Assembly: GCF_030734285.1 (NCBI RefSeq)
Contig: NZ_CP132294.1
Span: forward strand, 930,001 to 994,000
Reading direction: 5' to 3'
DNA: 64,000 nucleotides
Source of the DNA: Natronococcus sp. AD-5
Lineage (GTDB): Archaea > Halobacteriota > Halobacteria > Halobacteriales > Natrialbaceae
Shown: one piece after another, positions 22,078 to 38,227 of the stretch
How positions within the stretch are numbered: position 1 is the stretch's first letter
Layout: every line of letters starts with the position of its first letter
Notes under the pieces: model-generated
Told to the model about the DNA's origin: nothing
Seen by the model: only the letters and a program-made list of their open reading frames with translations
Database searches by the model: none
Position numbers and translations under genes: made by a program

Positions 22078-23033
22078 CTATAGCAGCGAGTAGATGTTCG
22101 CCCCGTAGACCGTCCGGACTTGGTCGCCCCAGTTGTGGGTGTAGGTGTCGATGACGTCGCTGGCGACGTCGCCGCGAAGGTACTTGACGACGCCGCGATC
22201 GCCCGTTCGATCCCGGAGGTGCGTCGTGAAGAAGTGCCGGAAGTAGTGGGGGGTCACGTTCTCCGTTGCACCGCCGCCCGTCCGATACCAGCCGTGCTCG
22301 CGGGCGTGTTTCTCGACGACGTACCGGACGTCCGAGGTCTGTAACCGCTCGCCGGAGTTCGGCGTCGACCGGGAGCACCGTATCCCGCTTGCGCTTGTTC
22401 GAGGCGGTTCGCTCCTCACCGTTGACGGTCCGGCCGCGAGCCGGCTCGGCGGCGACGAACACCGATGCCGCGCGACGCTCGAGCTGGACGCGCGGCGTCC
22501 ACTCGAGGTCGACCTCCGGTGTCTCGAGGAGGCAGCCCCGTAGATCGAGGTTACAGAGTTCGCCGACGCGCATCCCGGTTTTCAAGCAGGGTGACGACCA
22601 CGGCCCGCTCGAGCGGATGCGCGATCGAATCGACGAACGAGCGCATCTCGGGGACCGAAATATCCCGGCGCGTCGGGTTCGTATCGATCGATTCCGACAA
22701 CTCCTCCATGACGAGTACCATCGGATTCTCCTCGAAGACGCCGACCTGGGTCATGTAGTCGTAGAAGCGGTTGAGGTAGGACGCGTACGTCGCGATCGTG
22801 CTCGGTTCGAAGCGATCGCGAAGGGAGTGGACCCAGGCCATACACTCGCGCCGACCGACGTCCGAGACGTCCTCGACCGCGTCGAAGCGTTCGCACGCGA
22901 ACGCCTCGAACTGCCGGAGGACCCGCTCGTAGGCCTCGAGCGACCGACCGCTCTTTCCGTGATAGCGCTGGTCGTCAAGGAAGTACGCGATCGGGTCCGC
23001 GACCTCCTCGGGTGCGTCCGTTCTAGTCGCCAT
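22078..23033 (-). pseudogene. Decayed tyrosine recombinase (XerC/D-like) with two frame breaks
   Basis: Reading from 23033, frame A encodes the N-terminal core-binding domain ('DPIAYFLDDQRYHGKSGRSL', 'YASYLNRFYDYMTQVGVFEE') and the start of the catalytic domain ('HPLERAVVVTLL'). One extra base near 22588 then shifts the frame. The product continues as 'KTGMRVGELCNLDLRG' and 'RTASNKRKRDTVLPVDAELR'. A second break removes about 25 codons and shifts the frame again, after which 'SDVRYVVEKHAREHGW' runs to the end with 'TPHYFRHFFTTHL' and the Tyr region 'VIDTYTHNWGDQ'. The intact homologue at 23885 gives the alignment. It is inactive as it stands. Confidence 0.85.
22142..22281 (-). repeat. 140-bp inverted repeat copy A, inside the recombinase pseudogene
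   Basis: The reverse complement matches 24689-24828 at 139 of 140 positions. It covers the catalytic HxxR box through the region just before the nucleophilic Tyr. Sequence on both sides diverges sharply. Confidence 0.9.
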
Positions 23034-23208
23034 CGTCCTCGACGATCGTGTAGCCGCCGTGGCGGCCGCTGTATCGAATCCGGTTCTCGGCCTGTAGCTG
23101 TTCGAGGGCGTCGTCGAGTCGCGACTCGACGTCGTCGGTGACCGCCTCGAGGAGTTCGTCCCACGCGTACGTGTCATTTTCCAGTAAATTGAGGACACGT
23201 GTTTCGAG
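23023..23208 (-). pseudogene. Remnant of the recombinase partner gene
   Basis: The encoded segment 'LETRVLNLLENDTYAWDELL' through 'ENRIRYSGRHGGYTIVEDDG' matches the C-terminal winged-helix-like half of the intact partner at 23512. The N-terminal ribbon-helix-helix-like half is missing. It is replaced by an AT-rich, unrelated open frame that runs back to 23385. The stop overlaps the start of the recombinase pseudogene by 11 bp, mirroring the overlap in the intact cassette. Confidence 0.7.
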
Positions 23209-23511
23209 GGCTTTACCCCTAGGGTCTAAGCACAGAATATGCAGTATCATTCCCAGGTCATTTTCGGCTATCTTTAGGTTTTGACAGTGGGTTATAGGTC
23301 TCAAACTAGACTCGCTAGTTCGTACACTACAATAGTAATAGTCACTCAAAACCATATTTGTGTATGTGACATCAGTATAACTCATAGTATGCTACCATGA
23401 ACACAAATAATTAGTAAATCACCTCCAGATTATGAGTTTAATCTCACAAATAAATACCCTTATTTGTGAATATAGGGTAGATTGAAGTGGTTAGAGTTCG
23501 AGAACGAAGAT

Positions 23512-23892
23512 ATGACTGACAATGAGCGAACTACCGTGCAAACGTACGTGCCACGATACCAGAAACAAGTGTGGAGCGATCACGCCGATGAACTAGATAT
23601 GAGTCAAAGCGAATTCGTTCGAACCATGGTCCAGGCCGGTCGTCAGGACTTCGACGTTCCCTCACTCACCTCCCATTCCGATGAAAATTCGGAAACCAGT
23701 ACGGAAGATCTGGAAGAACGTATTCTCGATGTTCTCAATCAAGAGGCCGTCCTTGACTGGGACGACCTTATCGAACGACTGGTAGCAGACATCGAAGACG
23801 ACGTTGACGCGGCCTTAGGGAGACTGCAGGACGAAAATCTCGTTCGCTATAGTGGACGTGACGGGGGATACATCCGGACCGACAATGAGTGA
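23512..23892 (+). CDS. Small DNA-binding partner of the tyrosine recombinase (DUF5805-like)
   Basis: A 126-residue protein starting 'MTDNERTTVQTYVPRYQKQV'. Residues 8-45 look like a ribbon-helix-helix fold ('LDMSQSEFVRTMVQAGRQD'). The C-terminal half ('DDLIERLVADIEDDVDAALG', 'DENLVRYSGRDGGYIR') looks like a winged helix. I believe this matches DUF5805, a haloarchaeal integrase partner family (unverified). The stop overlaps the recombinase start by 8 bp, so the two are translationally coupled. It is AT-richer than the surrounding chromosome. A role as recombination directionality factor or regulator is inference. Confidence 0.8.
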   Translation: MTDNERTTVQTYVPRYQKQVWSDHADELDMSQSEFVRTMVQAGRQDFDVPSLTSHSDENSETSTEDLEERILDVLNQEAVLDWDDLIERLVADIEDDVDAALGRLQDENLVRYSGRDGGYIRTDNE

Positions 23893-24907
23893 GGTATCAG
23901 AGTCGATTGAATATTTCCTTGAAGATATTGAGCATCACGGTCGAAACGAACGAACCACGTCCGCGTATCGTCGTGTCCTTCTCGAATTTGAAGCGTATCT
24001 CGATGAAGAATTTGGGAAATCGCCCACGGAGGCTGGATACAGGGACTGTATGTCTTTTACTCACGAACTCCGTTCGCAGTACTCGGAAAGTACGGTTGCG
24101 AGCTATACGTCATACTTGAATCGGTTCTATGGCTATCTAGTACGGGTCGGTCACCACGATGAAAACCCGATGGAACTCGTTCTCGAAGAGATGAGTGAAT
24201 CGATCGAGTCGAATCCATCACGTCGAGATATTTCTCTTGCAGAGATGCGGGATTTCATCGCTGCCGTTCGACATCCCTTGCACAGAGCGATTGTCATTAC
24301 ACTATTAAAAACTGGCATTCGATCCGGAGAGCTCTGTAACCTCGATCTGATCGATATCAACCTTGATCATGAGGTGATGTGGTGGAATCCTCGAGCTCAG
24401 ATTGCTAAACAACCCGATTCACTATACATTTCTGCAAAACATGCTTATGGAAACGAATCCGATGGTATAGTTAGAACAGCATCTAATAAACGCAAACGCG
24501 AAACGATAATTCCAATCGATGACGAGCTCAAAAATGCACTACTCCAGTGGTTAAGCATCCGTCCAGATACTCAGAGTACTGTACAGCCGCTTTTTGTAGG
24601 AACGGTTGAGCAATGGGGAAAACGAATTACAATTGATATTGTCCATCATACCGTTGAAAAATATGCACGGAACCATGGCTGGTTTCGAACGGGCGGCGGT
24701 GCAACGGAGAACGTGACCCCCCACTACTTCCGGCACTTCTTCACGACGCACCTCCGGGATCGAACGGGCGATCGCGGCGTCGTCAAGTACCTCCGCGGCG
24801 ACGTCGCCAGCGACGTCATCGACACCTATACGCATAATTGGGGGGATCGTATTCGAGAAACCTATCTCGAAAATATTTATTCCCTACAGACAGGTTCACC
24901 TTATTAA
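23885..24907 (+). CDS. Tyrosine recombinase/integrase, intact
   Basis: A 340-residue site-specific recombinase. The core-binding domain occupies about residues 1-110 ('ESTVASYTSYLNRFYGYLV'), with the catalytic domain after it. Active-site residues visible are Arg I in 'KTGIRSGELCNLDL', the HxxR box in 'VTPHYFRHFFTTHLRD' and the nucleophilic Tyr in 'VIDTYTHNWGDR'. The gene is AT-rich except for a GC-rich 140-bp block near the 3' end that is nearly identical to the pseudogene copy. The start at 23885 (ATGAGTGA) overlaps the partner gene. It probably mobilises a small integrated element. No att site is identified. Confidence 0.9.
   Translation: MSEVSESIEYFLEDIEHHGRNERTTSAYRRVLLEFEAYLDEEFGKSPTEAGYRDCMSFTHELRSQYSESTVASYTSYLNRFYGYLVRVGHHDENPMELVLEEMSESIESNPSRRDISLAEMRDFIAAVRHPLHRAIVITLLKTGIRSGELCNLDLIDINLDHEVMWWNPRAQIAKQPDSLYISAKHAYGNESDGIVRTASNKRKRETIIPIDDELKNALLQWLSIRPDTQSTVQPLFVGTVEQWGKRITIDIVHHTVEKYARNHGWFRTGGGATENVTPHYFRHFFTTHLRDRTGDRGVVKYLRGDVASDVIDTYTHNWGDRIRETYLENIYSLQTGSPY
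24689..24828 (+). repeat. 140-bp inverted repeat copy B, inside the intact recombinase
   Basis: Matches the reverse complement of 22142-22281 at 139 of 140 positions. The single difference is a synonymous C/T in the codon pair for 'YLRG'. The block is clearly GC-richer than the rest of the gene around it. Confidence 0.9.
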
Positions 24908-25748
24908 AAGTGAAAGATAGTTTCACGATACCGTTTTTCAAGAGACGGGAAATCGATATTTGAATCTGAATGAGATCCTAAGATGTATTCGCGGTGATGT
25001 AGTGGTCCCCGAAACCGTTCTTTGAAAAAGTATCTCAGGGCAATTGGTGTGAAGTTCGATATTTCATTGTCTGTTGAATAGTATCCATGTTTTCTCCCAT
25101 ACTTTTCGAAAATATATCGTATATTAGCTGGTTTAATACGCTTTCTCCAACTATCTTTCGTTTCTGTGAACAACGCCTCATCTTCAGGTTGGTCCGGTCG
25201 GATTGCTAGCCATCGCAATAATACTGATTCCAATTGATCATCAATCGGAATCAGAGTACGTTGATTCCGTTCTTTGCGGTTACTGTATGGAATATCTCCG
25301 CCATACTGTACAACCAATCCTGGGCCATCAAATTTATCCACTGTTCCTGTCTGAGCATTATTTAAATTATGTCACTTACATTAAGATTACACAACTCTCC
25401 AACGCCAATTCCAGTCTTTGCGATAGTAGCGATAATTGCTAGCGAGAGAGGATGGTGAACGGTATTGTATATATCTAAAACAATACGCATTGGAAAAATA
25501 TTTCGTGAAGTTGTAGGTGTAGGCGAATCTTTATTCGTTCCTCGTCGGTGACCGTGAGCAGCACGGTGACAATCTCGACAAAGCGTAATTAGATTATCTG
25601 ACCTGTTTGTTCCACGTGTATGTATCGGTACAATATGATGAACGTTCAAATTGGTCGTTTCACCGCAATTTCTGCACATCCCATCGTCTCGCTTTAGAAT
25701 TTGATCGCGAAGTTTGAACCATTCGTGTCCGCGAAGTCGCTCCGCCAT
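24904..25748 (-). pseudogene. HNH endonuclease fused to a degenerate tyrosine-recombinase domain, frameshifted
   Basis: Reading from the ATG at 25748, about residues 1-60 are an HNH nuclease: 'KRDDGMCRNCGE', 'NVHHIVPIHTRGTNRSDN' and 'LITLCRDCHRAAHG'. A short linker leads into a recombinase catalytic domain ('HHPLSLAIIATIAKTGIGVG', 'ELCNLNVSDI'). A one-base deletion near 25360 breaks the frame. The next frame continues 'RNQRTLIPIDDQLESVLLRW' and 'YIFEKYGRKHGYYSTDNEIS'. The core-binding domain is absent. Arg I is Gly ('GIGVGEL'), the HxxR His is lost ('TPIALRYFFKERF') and the Tyr is not evident. The DNA is AT-rich, and the 3' end abuts the intact recombinase. Confidence 0.75.
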
Positions 25749-25849
25749 TTTGCTACTCAATGGTTTCTCACAGCTTAAATCAATATTGCTGTCAAGTTTA
25801 GTGGGGACAGGTTATTCATCCGACATAAACGTATGTTAGAATACAATCG

Positions 25850-25872
25850 CATATATCATATGTCGATATATG
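25850..25872. repeat. AT-rich 23-bp palindrome near the island edge
   Basis: 7-bp arms CATATAT (25850-25856) and ATATATG (25866-25872) around a 9-base centre that itself contains CATATG. It lies in the AT-rich gap between the HNH fusion and the PH-domain gene. It could be a recombinase or regulator site. Confidence 0.4.
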
Positions 25873-25940
25873 AAATACAGACTATATTGAATAGGAATCC
25901 AATGATAGGTGATTCAGCAGTTGATCTACAGAAGAACGCT

Positions 25941-27533
25941 TCAGTCAGGCTCTTCCGGGGTAGAATCTGAACCAGATTCGAGATTCTGTGCTGGATCATT
26001 CTGACTGTTAAACCATTCACCAACTGTCTTGGATCGTTTCCGCGCGCGGAGTCGTTTCTGCAGTCGGTCCTCGATGTGGCGCTGCAACTCGAGTCCCGTC
26101 TCGGCGTCGACGTCGTACGCGGTCGCCGCCCGTCCGAGGAACGTGGCCGAACTCGCGGTGTCCGCCGTGACGCTGGCGAGCCGACGTCGGCGCTGGAAGA
26201 TCGACTGCGTGTGGAGCACCGCCTGGACGCGGTAGTAGGGAACGACCTTCGTCGACCGCCTCCAGAACCCGGTTCGCGCGAGAACGTACCGGTCGCCGGC
26301 GCGGTACCCGCGGTTCGACCACTTCAGGTGGGCGGCGACCGGGACGAGGACGAGCAGACCGGCGAGCGCGTACCAGCGCTCGAAGATCGTAACGCTGGCG
26401 AGCAGGTAGCCGACGCCGACGACGACGGCGACGACCAGGAGGTACCGGACGCCGTATCGCTCCCGCGCCCGTTTCGGCGGCGCCTCGAGGTCGACGTCGC
26501 CGAAGGGTTCGATCGAGCGGGCGAGGTCGACGACCCGGTCGAACCTGGCGAGCGGGATCGCGGATTCCGACCCCCGGCTGTCCGACTGGCCGGGCGCGTA
26601 CCCGGCGGTTTCGACGGCCAGCGCCCCGTAGCCGAACCACCGGAAGGGGACGCGTTCTGAGATCGTCAGCGTCTGGACCTTCTCGAGCGGAATCGTTCCG
26701 CTGTAGCGCTGGATCAACCCGCGCTCGTAGTACAGTTCGTCGCCGATGCGCGTGAGCCGGAAACCGTAGTACCGGTTGACGGTCAGGACGGCGCTCACGA
26801 CCCAGGCGGCGAGCAAGAAGAGCAGGACGGCCCACGCGAGGGCGACGGCGCCACTGCCGGGGCCGATCCCCTCGACGAGACCGACCGGAACCAGCGTCGC
26901 AGGGTCGAGTCCGCTGACGAACGAGAGTGCGATCCCCCCGAGGAGGCTGGCCCCAGGATCGATCGTGAACACGCTCAGGATCGCGAGTTCTCGCGGTTGA
27001 ATCTCGAAGAGGAGATCCTCTTCGTCCTGCGGTTCGTCCTCGATTGCGTCGCGATCGGTCGCCTCGTCGGCCGCCGCTTCGCGGTCGTCGTCGGTCCGCG
27101 CGCCGCGACGGAGTCGCCGCCTGAGTCGCCGAGCCTCGTCCTCGCCGACGTACTGCAGCGAGACCTCCGTCTGTCCGCCGCCCGCGGTTTCGATGTGGAC
27201 GGCGGCGACGCCGAGCGCCCTGCTGAGGACCGTTTGCCTGATATCGACGTTCTGAATCCGGCGCAGCGGGACTTCGCGATCGCGCCGCGCGACGACGCCC
27301 GAGGCGACGTCGAAGGTATCCGCGGTGAGTTCGTACCGGAACCGCTCGTAGTAGGCGATTTCGTAGACGACCGCGACGAGGATGCCGGCGAGGACCATCC
27401 CGCCGACCGAGAGCAGGTTCGGCCCGGCACCGCCGGGCGAGACGACGATCCCGGCGATGAAAAACAACAGTCCGACGTTCACGCTGCGCGAAATCGATCG
27501 AGCCGCGACCGACGCCGGGTGGAGCTTCTTCAT
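25941..27533 (-). CDS. PH-domain membrane protein, YdbT-like (three bacterial PH domains), copy 1
   Basis: A 530-residue membrane protein. Bacterial-type PH (bPH2/DUF304) repeats are seen at '[20 protein letters not shown]', '[20 protein letters not shown]' and '[20 protein letters not shown]', each after a pair of membrane helices. An acidic, Arg-rich linker lies at about residues 145-180. The function is unknown beyond membrane association. It overlaps the small PH gene upstream by 4 bp (ATGA), the usual ydbS-ydbT pair. The last ~20 residues ('[20 protein letters not shown]') are encoded by AT-richer DNA at the edge of the recombinase island and differ from the copy at 36120. Confidence 0.85.
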
Positions 27534-28018
27534 ACGGCGTCCTCACCCTCGCTCTCGATCGCGAGTCGGCGCAGTTCCTCGCGGAGTTTCTCGGCTCGCG
27601 CCGGGGTCAGCCCGGGAATCGCCACGTCGGCGCTTCGCGATCCAGCCGTGTAGACGACGACCGTCGAGAGCCCGGTGGTCCGCTCGAGCGGCGATCGACG
27701 GGAGTCGACGTGCTGGACGCGGACGTACGGGACGACGGTCTTGATTCGGGTGAAGACGCCCCGTTCGATGAACAGTCCGTCTCCTTCTACCTCGAACCGC
27801 CAGACGGAGTAGCGAAGCCAGGCGACGACGAGCCGAACGATACCCACGGCCACGGCGAGCGCGATGGCTCCCGGGACGAGCAGATCCGGCGTGTTAGCCC
27901 AGAAGTCGGTGACAGAGAGCAACAGTGCTCCCCCCACGAGGAATCCGCCGGCGAGACTGGCCCGAAAGAGCGCCACGATGAGCCAGACGGCGCGAACTCG
28001 CGGGTTGAGTCGTTCCAT
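27530..28018 (-). CDS. PH-domain membrane protein, YdbS-like, copy 1
   Basis: A 162-residue protein with two membrane helices (about 12-36 and 47-67) and one bPH2 domain: '[20 protein letters not shown]', '[20 protein letters not shown]', '[18 protein letters not shown]'. It overlaps the larger PH gene by ATGA, implying coupled translation and a joint complex. A paralogous pair lies at 36120-38227. Confidence 0.88.
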
Positions 28019-36119: not shown

Positions 36120-37769
36120 TCAGGTGAAGTCCACCGAAAGGCCGACGTCGTCGGAACGAGCGCGCTCTCGCAGGGCCGTCTGCAGGTTCTTCCGCCCCGT
36201 CTCGTGAGCGCCTCGAGCGTCCTCGAGGTCGACGTCGTAGACCGCCGGCGTCGCCCAGAAGAACGTACGGGAACTGGCGGTGTCGACGACCAGCGACGCC
36301 AGTCCGAGGCGGCGCTGGAAGATCGACCGCCGCGTCGTGACGGTCTGGATGCGGTAGTACGGGATGACGGTCGTTCGTCGGCGCCAGAACCCGCGTCGAA
36401 TCACCAGGTGCTCCTCGCCGACGTAGTAGCCGAGGTGGACGTACCGCAGGTGCGCCGCCGGCGGCACCGCCGCGAAGACGACCGCGGCGAGGTACCAGCG
36501 CTCGAGCGGCGTCACCCGGGCGATTGCGAAGCCTATCGCGACGGTCGCGGCGGCGATCAACGAGTACCGGACGAGGTACCGGCGGCGCGCGAGCGGCGGC
36601 GGCCCCTCGAACGTCGGCGTCTCGACGCCCGCGAGGCTCTCGGTGAACCGGTGAACGCGGGACGTTCGGGCGAGCGGGACGGCCGACTGGCTGCCGCCGC
36701 TGCTGTCCGGTCCGTAGCCGGCCGTTTCGACCCACAGGCCGGCGTACTCGATCGCGCGCTGGATCGGGTTGTCGGTGACCGTCACCGACTGCACCTTCCC
36801 GACCGGAATCGAGCCGCTGTAGCGCTGGAGGAGGCCGCGCTCGTAGACGAAGTCGTCGCCGACGCGGCCGAGCCGGAAGTCGTAGTACGTCGCGAACGTG
36901 TAGGCGACGCTGACCAGGTAGGTGACGACGATCCCGTGGATCATCGAGACGACCGTCAGGACGCCGTAACTCCGCGCGTCGCCGGTCGCGAGGTCCGCCG
37001 GACCGCCGAACGGCCGCGAGAGGGCGACGAGCGCCTCGAGAACCGTGTCGGTCGCGAGGAAGAACACGAACCCGATCGCCGCGACCGCGGCGGGTCGCAG
37101 CGTCGTCAGCGAGTACAGGAGGAGTTCCCGCGACTCGAGGGCGAACAGCCGCTTTCGCCGGGGCTCACGACGGCGGTCGGACGACGGAATCGATCGCCGA
37201 TCCGCGGCTCGACGATCGGTTTCGCTCGCCTCCGTCCGCTCACCCGACTTCACGCCCTCCGGCGGTGTCTCCGCCGTTAGCTTCGACTCCGTCGACCCGG
37301 TCGAGGGCGCGTCGGAGCGGTCGTTCACCCGGGCCGTCCGACGACGAATCTGGTGCCGTAATCTGTCGGCGTCCGTCTTGCTGACGAAGTTCAGCGCCGC
37401 CTCGCTGTCCCCGCCGCCGGCCGTCTCGACGGTGACGACGGCGAGGCCGAGCAGTCGCTGCAGCACGCCTTGCCGCACGTCGACGTTCTGGATCCGCCGG
37501 TACGGGATCTCGCGGGACCGGCGGGCGAACACGCCGGAGGCGACGTCGAACGTGTCCGGCGTGACGGCGTATCCGAACCGATAGTAGTACGCGACGCCGT
37601 AGCCGGCGCCGAGGAGGAATCCGAGCAGCGCGACGAGCGGCGACCACGCCATCCCGACGGGATCGACGACGCCCGCGAGTCCGATGACGAGAACGACGGG
37701 AACCCAGAGCCAGAGCAGTCCGTACTGGACGGCGTACGCGGCCGCGCTGAACGGATGGAGTCGGTTCAT
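36120..37769 (-). CDS. PH-domain membrane protein, YdbT-like, copy 2
   Basis: A 549-residue paralogue of the protein at 25941. Matching bPH2 segments are '[20 protein letters not shown]', 'DFRLGRVGDDFVYERGLLQR' and 'HLVIRRGFWRRRTTVIPYYR'. A longer Ser/Arg-rich linker lies at about residues 150-215. It overlaps the small PH gene by ATGA exactly as copy 1 does. It ends 'RARSDDVGLSVDFT', without the extra tail of copy 1. Confidence 0.85.
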   Translation of the reverse strand: MNRLHPFSAAAYAVQYGLLWLWVPVVLVIGLAGVVDPVGMAWSPLVALLGFLLGAGYGVAYYYRFGYAVTPDTFDVASGVFARRSREIPYRRIQNVDVRQGVLQRLLGLAVVTVETAGGGDSEAALNFVSKTDADRLRHQIRRRTARVNDRSDAPSTGSTESKLTAETPPEGVKSGERTEASETDRRAADRRSIPSSDRRREPRRKRLFALESRELLLYSLTTLRPAAVAAIGFVFFLATDTVLEALVALSRPFGGPADLATGDARSYGVLTVVSMIHGIVVTYLVSVAYTFATYYDFRLGRVGDDFVYERGLLQRYSGSIPVGKVQSVTVTDNPIQRAIEYAGLWVETAGYGPDSSGGSQSAVPLARTSRVHRFTESLAGVETPTFEGPPPLARRRYLVRYSLIAAATVAIGFAIARVTPLERWYLAAVVFAAVPPAAHLRYVHLGYYVGEEHLVIRRGFWRRRTTVIPYYRIQTVTTRRSIFQRRLGLASLVVDTASSRTFFWATPAVYDVDLEDARGAHETGRKNLQTALRERARSDDVGLSVDFT

Positions 37770-38227
37770 ACGGCGTCTTCAGCCTCGCTCTCGACGGCGA
37801 GTTCGCGGAGCGTATCCTGCAGGTCCCGCGCCCGGTTCGGCCGCAGTCCGGGGATTCGGACGTCCGCGTTCCGCGAACCGGCCGTGTAGACGACGACGCT
37901 CGAGAGCCCGAGCGCCCGTTCGACGGGCCCGAACTGCGTGTCGACGTGCTGGACGCGGACGAACGGGACGGCGGTCTCGACGAACGTGACGACGCCGCGT
38001 TCGAGGTAGAGCGCGTCCGGCTGGAGTTCGAACTGCCAGACCTGGTAGAGCCGGATGGCGTACGCGGCGCCGACGGCGACCGCGGCGCCGACCACGACCG
38101 CCAGTCCGACGGTCGGGACGGACGCGATCCACCGATCGACGGCGCCGAGCACGGCGCCGAGAACGATCGCCACGATCGCCGTCTGGGCGATCCAGAGGAT
38201 CCTGATACGCGGATGAAGCGACTCCAT
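37766..38227 (-). CDS. PH-domain membrane protein, YdbS-like, copy 2
   Basis: A 153-residue paralogue of the gene at 27530. It has two membrane helices and then a bPH2 domain: 'WQFELQPDALYLERGVVTFV', 'AVPFVRVQHVDTQFGPVERA', '[20 protein letters not shown]'. The gene order and 4-bp overlap match copy 1, so the pair duplicated as a unit. Confidence 0.88.
   Translation of the reverse strand: MESLHPRIRILWIAQTAIVAIVLGAVLGAVDRWIASVPTVGLAVVVGAAVAVGAAYAIRLYQVWQFELQPDALYLERGVVTFVETAVPFVRVQHVDTQFGPVERALGLSSVVVYTAGSRNADVRIPGLRPNRARDLQDTLRELAVESEAEDAV

Follow-up and report, generated by a model that had tools for sequence, protein, structure and literature searches.

The window analysed here, a stretch of 64,000 nucleotides of the Natronococcus sp. 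AD-5 genome, includes two copies of a module in which a DUF5805 gene (PF19121) is followed by a tyrosine recombinase gene. The features of the locus are listed in Table 1. The GC-rich copy, unit 1, lies in a gene order that is common to other Natronococcus (a metallo-hydrolase-like gene, a 307-aa gene, recombinase, DUF5805, bPH genes and fumC) and shares 83–87% identity with the single copy of a congener (locus L049). Comparison with L049 located two lesions in its recombinase gene, a one-base frameshift near position 22585 and an 86-nt deletion at position 22350. The accompanying DUF5805 gene is cut at about position 23226, in the linker between its domains, and the N-terminal half of the gene, the promoter and the dif-like site are gone from this unit. 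The N-terminus of DUF5805 looks like a ribbon-helix-helix domain.

The sequence between position ~23226 and the C-terminus of a bPH gene near position 26034 is AT-rich and non-native. Its module, unit 2, is inverted relative to the native one. The cassette recombinase was closest to XerA, XerC and XerD in both model and structure searches, and the catalytic Arg (TGIRSGEL), HxxR (TPHYFRH) and Tyr (DTYTHNW) are all present within its PF00589 and PF02899 matches. A third recombinase gene, the HNH-Xer gene, is a remnant. In addition to the replacement of the box I Arg by Gly, its catalytic domain has lost the box II His and the Tyr segment, and the gene is frameshifted in the window. The bPH-type membrane protein gene pair is found in two diverged copies (about 41–50% identity) at positions 25941–28018 and 36141–38227, and the right edge of the cassette falls in the C-terminus of the first pair. 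At the level of sequence comparison, these results showed that unit 1 is the native Natronococcus module and that unit 2 is foreign.

Table 1. Features of the AD-5 locus (positions in the window)
Feature	Position	Strand	Basis and remarks
Native Xer-like recombinase pseudogene	22078–23042	−	Alignment with intact L049; tree; PF02899, PF00589
Donor copy of converted tract, HxxR box to Tyr codon	22142–22281	−	Alignment, synonymous sites
Native DUF5805 gene remnant	23026–23227	−	Homology to native genes ends at 23225–23227; PF19121
Foreign AT-rich cassette, right edge approximate	23228–26033		Replaces native interval, DUF5805 linker to bPH C-terminus
Cassette dif-like site, CTCACAAATAA ATACCC TTATTTGTGAA (11-6-11)	23443–23470	+	Motif, conservation
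Intact cassette DUF5805 gene, ATG probably at 23512	23482–23892	+	PF19121, E 3e-24
Intact cassette Xer-like tyrosine recombinase, 340 aa, overlaps DUF5805 stop	23885–24907	+	PF02899, PF00589; XerA/XerC/XerD models; XerA, XerD structures
Recipient copy of converted tract, within intact AT-rich gene	24689–24828	+	Alignment, synonymous sites
C-terminal part of HNH-Xer fusion gene	24904–25341	−	Frameshifted from HNH part; without catalytic Tyr segment
HNH part of HNH-Xer gene and box I region	25362–25760	−	PF01844; TGIGVGEL, catalytic Arg replaced by Gly

A short tract shared by two diverged recombinase genes

An earlier note had described two nearly identical inverted blocks in recombinase genes that otherwise differ heavily, one of them decayed, and had proposed gene conversion between the decayed and the active copy. 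Base-by-base alignment bore out the description. The blocks are identical at 139 of 140 positions, the single mismatch being T in unit 1 and C in unit 2, and the rest of the two genes is strongly diverged; the decayed gene is the GC-rich one, which is frameshifted and deleted and has a truncated partner. Identity drops to 31/50 in the 50 nt that precede the block and to 26/50 soon after it, and then reaches background levels, while a repeat search extended the inverted repeat to two 195-nt arms, 22124–22318 and 24652–24846, that are 91% identical. The block is also, as had been noted, a GC-rich patch inside the AT-rich intact gene: its GC content is 60–66% compared with about 45% in the rest of the gene, and GC3 of this plus-strand gene is 41/47 in the block versus 117/293 outside (P = 7e-10), with jumps at both block edges. 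Of the limits proposed for the tract, the inclusion of the HxxR box was correct, but the tract does not stop just before the Tyr segment. Its end falls within the catalytic Tyr codon (TAC/TAT, with a different last base), and thus the Tyr of DTYTHNW is reached.

No other stretch of the protein is as conserved in the family as the block: 42–47 of its 47 residues are shared by intact homologues across haloarchaea. Since identity of the protein is expected from this conservation, the synonymous sites are the test. When units 1 and 2 were compared at codons for the same amino acid, the third positions matched in 45 of 47 cases in the block but in 34 of 96 elsewhere (29/72 for the N-terminal part, 5/24 next to the block; P = 6e-13). 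Near-identity without conversion could be attributed to purifying selection acting on the catalytic core, or to a conserved element in the DNA, and the conservation of this stretch speaks for such a view. However, homologues with the same block protein sequence differ at 9–26 of the 47 third positions, and a match as close as this one is confined, among the homologues compared, to the two copies of Natronococcus sp. AD-5. The block is therefore conserved in independent recombinases as protein and not synonymously, and the refuting condition named in the earlier note, that independent recombinases would show the same block, does not overturn the conversion. Together with the GC3 jumps, these observations leave selection a very small probability, and on the synonymous sites it was rejected as the cause of the block identity.

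Phylogenetic analyses led to the same result. In the tree of the sequence outside the block, unit 1 is placed among Natronococcus genes and unit 2 belongs to a clade of foreign type (98/84); in the tree of the block, the two copies of the AD-5 genome pair together (99/78). A bounded synonymous excess and discordant trees in and out of the block are the signs of ectopic conversion, and, judged by them, the 140-nt patch is a real gene conversion, as proposed. The direction of the transfer was deduced from the third positions. The unit 2 block shares 38/47 of them with the native gene of L049 and 25/47 with the locus of Natrinema hispanicum DSM 18328 (L059), which, of the database relatives, is nearest to unit 2 when the block is left out of the comparison and whose own block has a GC3 of 25/47. 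Because unit 2 is foreign outside the block, while inside it the two copies pair and are closer to native L049, these comparisons showed the decayed native GC-rich copy to be the donor and the intact AT-rich copy the recipient. The unit 1 codon at the mismatch, CTT, is derived, the compared relatives having CTC, as expected if the dead gene mutated once the conversion had taken place. No third donor copy was found elsewhere in the AD-5 genome.

The earlier note had also considered that a crossover between the repeats would invert the intervening DNA. The 140-nt inverted repeats, at 99% identity, make a homologous inversion possible in principle, and the two copies could then be an active switch that flips 2.4 kb and swaps the recombinase tails. 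This interpretation was not supported. One partner is a pseudogene that has no promoter, start or intact frame. No crossover or inversion was seen between the repeats in the window, where each gene has, on both sides of the tract, the tail and the 5′ part proper to its own type, and the orientation is the same in the other relatives that carry a cassette. We consider a switch very improbable.

Recurrent replacement of the module in relatives

The same interval holds similar cassettes in N. hispanicum DSM 18328 (L059) and in genomes G115 (L172) and G024 (L041). N. hispanicum strain CDM_6 (L102) is cassette-free and near-identical to L059, and the flanks of the G115 locus are 96–97% identical to those of the cassette-free N. 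thermotolerans DSM 11552 (L095). Two-copy loci in which no HNH gene was detected are present in Natronolimnohabitans (L062) and in a MAG (L061). The left edges of the cassettes are located in the DUF5805 linker, in a stretch of about 12 nt upstream of ACCCTGGGGGTAACG. In the tree, the native copies group by genus and the cassette copies form a separate clade, which showed, for the loci compared, that replacements recur in several genera, at least three of them being independent. One ancestral insertion inherited by all carriers is unlikely, since the native copies group by genus, near-identical cassette-free strains exist and the cassettes of the two Natrinema differ from each other more than the native copies of the same two genomes do.

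Of about 100 genomes of the family, a few carried a full or partial HNH-recombinase gene, in every case at an xer locus. This HNH and recombinase-dead Xer family includes the gene in the window (24904–25760, minus strand) and those at L059 7039–7890, L172 5469–6308, L041 9563–10426 and L056 10868–11746. In the last of these, from genome G019, the HNH-Xer gene is on the other side, just upstream of a native module. Other genomes (L043, L044, L046, L063–L067 and L175) have only a unit-2-type recombinase, in the native orientation. The weak grouping of their catalytic block with native types (GIVQYL) suggests that this block may have been converted at earlier times as well. An inversion was considered as the origin of these genes, but the tails give no support to it.

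These distributions resemble those of HNH homing endonucleases in that an HNH gene travels with the cassette repeatedly at one locus, with a recurrent left edge. They differ in that the HNH domain, a putative nuclease, is fused to a recombinase-dead Xer domain, and in that an interval is replaced instead of a clean insertion being made. It is conceivable, although we rate it as rather unlikely, that the cassette is a homing element whose HNH domain would cut the resident Xer/dif module under the guidance of the dead Xer domain, with repair installing the cassette. On the same tentative footing, the installed cassette would bring its own site, its own DUF5805 and a recombinase with another specificity for the arms. 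The recurrent edges would equally be preserved if the cassette were passed on by ordinary homologous recombination from a donor that carries it.

The recombinase family and its dif-like site

A relative of the recombinase was detected in 58 of the 61 genomes; the 50 good haloarchaeal genomes all have it, and with it the module of DUF5805 and recombinase. A close relative usually occurs once per genome. DUF5805 occurs in Haloferax volcanii too, which was among the control genomes. The cassette recombinase scored 124.8 bits against the NCBI XerA equivalog NF040815, below the cut-off of 220, and on this model it is therefore not classed as XerA; the cut-off was not reached by any protein of the 21 haloarchaeal genomes searched. 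A viral or plasmid integrase was considered and rejected: phages and viral contigs gave no match, and large haloarchaeal replicons gave two close ones. Likewise, tRNA-linked integration was discarded, there being no tRNA in the window. The recombinase behaves as a housekeeping gene and not as a stray integrase. A second, more diverged relative adjoins the main one in G049 (L182 1678–2244) and in G012 (L179) lies at a locus apart from it, accompanied by a DUF5805-like gene.

A TAA-N6-TTA sequence is located upstream of DUF5805 in 77 of 79 loci, almost always at a distance of 147–163 nt from the same codon. For any other spacer length between 2 and 12 nt the count reached at most seven, the motif being tied to the 6-nt spacer. 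Twelve more loci in which recombinase identity is 50% or higher were compared, and 10 of them have the sequence, eight of these 55–67 nt before the DUF5805 start. It is absent from two of the 79 loci, from two of the 12 and from three deep-branching loci (about 42% identity). In the divergent loci L176, L177, L178, L182 and L183, DUF5805 and the recombinase are kept and TAA-N6-TTA is missing; the site may have changed there.

The arms differ by recombinase type, with the consensus ggATAA-N6-TTAtCccGAAt for the native-type site and CAAATAA-N6-TTATTTGTGAA for the foreign-type site, and the sequence of the spacer varies while the arms are kept. The cassette carries the foreign type and thus its own site, the native site having been lost with the native promoter. 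At the 22 arm positions, the mean match to the dif of Pyrococcus abyssi (PMC2958812) is 13.4 for the native type and 13.8 for the foreign type, and the inner arms ATAA/TTAT are the same. The site is single-copy in the AD-5 genome when up to 3 mismatches are allowed. A search of 61 genomes with a degenerate native-type pattern produced five matches, four of these being immediately upstream of the gene for this recombinase, and the reversed control produced none. In addition to the full palindrome, cassette loci (23350–23470 in the window, L041 7990–8100 and L172 7590–7700) have, further upstream, one or two TTTGTG/CACAAA half-sites that may be operators or sites of the arm type.

The best explanation of these results is that most haloarchaea have one operon, DUF5805 followed by an Xer-like recombinase, that adjoins a single dif-like site. 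From its anatomy and conservation, we infer that the recombinase may act on this site and resolve chromosome dimers. The XerA score below the cut-off, the loci that lack TAA-N6-TTA and the unaffected viability of H. volcanii after deletion of four xerC/D-like genes (PMC7776575) count against this reading. The palindrome could instead be the operator of a DUF5805 autorepressor of the ribbon-helix-helix kind, the recombinase having another housekeeping role or none; conversion and replacement would be unchanged. An operator role is possible because the site, immediately before the start of DUF5805, overlaps the probable promoter of this gene. In favour of it, too, the additional TTTGTG half-sites are nearby in cassette loci, and a change of arms goes along with a change of DUF5805 and not of the recombinase alone. 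Against this, the spacer is exactly 6 nt long and variable in sequence between conserved arms, the inner arms match those of P. abyssi dif and the linked enzyme is Xer-like, and linked xer-dif modules are known in bacteria (PMC2731167). We regard the operator alone as an unlikely account, although both roles could be true.

Taken together, the locus is probably a haloarchaeal Xer/dif module in allelic replacement by a foreign version that was then patched by conversion. A foreign site, DUF5805, recombinase and HNH-recombinase gene replaced the native interval from the DUF5805 linker to the end of the neighbouring bPH gene, removing the native site, the promoter and half of the native DUF5805. 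The native recombinase, without promoter and partner, decayed. With the best-conserved stretch of the two genes then present as an inverted repeat, its copies 2.4 kb from each other, homologous repair without crossover probably copied about 140 nt, from the HxxR box to the Tyr codon, from the native to the foreign gene. The exchange was probably neutral, because the resulting protein segment is the one usual in the family. As in ectopic conversion of duplicated genes, a short near-identical tract has diverged flanks, donor and recipient can be identified and there was no crossover. Unlike the usual case, the partners are a native gene and its foreign displacer, and the tract coincides with the catalytic core.

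Relation to known Xer systems and significance

XerA/dif is established in Thermococcales (P. abyssi) and Thermoplasma acidophilum (PMC2958812, PMC8371274). The haloarchaeal module resembles it in having a chromosomal tyrosine recombinase with a SAM-like N-terminus and an 11-6-11 site with inner arms ATAA/TTAT, which is single in the one genome tested here. However, the haloarchaeal recombinase scores below the XerA model cut-off and is in an operon with a DUF5805 gene, and the site is directly upstream of this operon, while the dif of Thermococcales is not next to xerA. A single recombinase gene and an adjoining site also form one module, with similar protein length, in XerS/difSL of streptococci and XerH/difH of epsilon-proteobacteria (PMC2731167, PMC5357621). 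XerS and XerH belong to another recombinase branch and have no DUF5805 partner, and the centre of difSL is 11 nt compared with 6 nt in the haloarchaeal site. The XerS and XerH systems depend on FtsK, which to our knowledge is absent from archaea. The linked DUF5805 protein is therefore a natural candidate for controlling the recombination reaction.

A 2020 review of H. volcanii stated that several XerC/D-like genes suggest the existence of dif sites, with a role in replication termination to be determined, and that the deletion of four xerC/D-like genes, a set that may or may not include the DUF5805-linked one, did not affect viability (PMC7776575). No paper that names a haloarchaeal dif or mentions DUF5805 was found in the open-access literature searched, and earlier work may exist elsewhere. 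The comparison of relatives points to a candidate Xer/dif system for chromosome separation in haloarchaea, and, with the recombinase gene near-universal and its dif-like neighbour fixed in position, the haloarchaeal Xer/dif question can be tested directly in a laboratory haloarchaeon. The window illustrates how such a system may be exchanged: a foreign recombinase arrives together with its site, the resident gene decays, and conversion preserves part of the resident sequence. If the homing reading is true, a selfish element would take over a chromosome-maintenance system while this system stays working.
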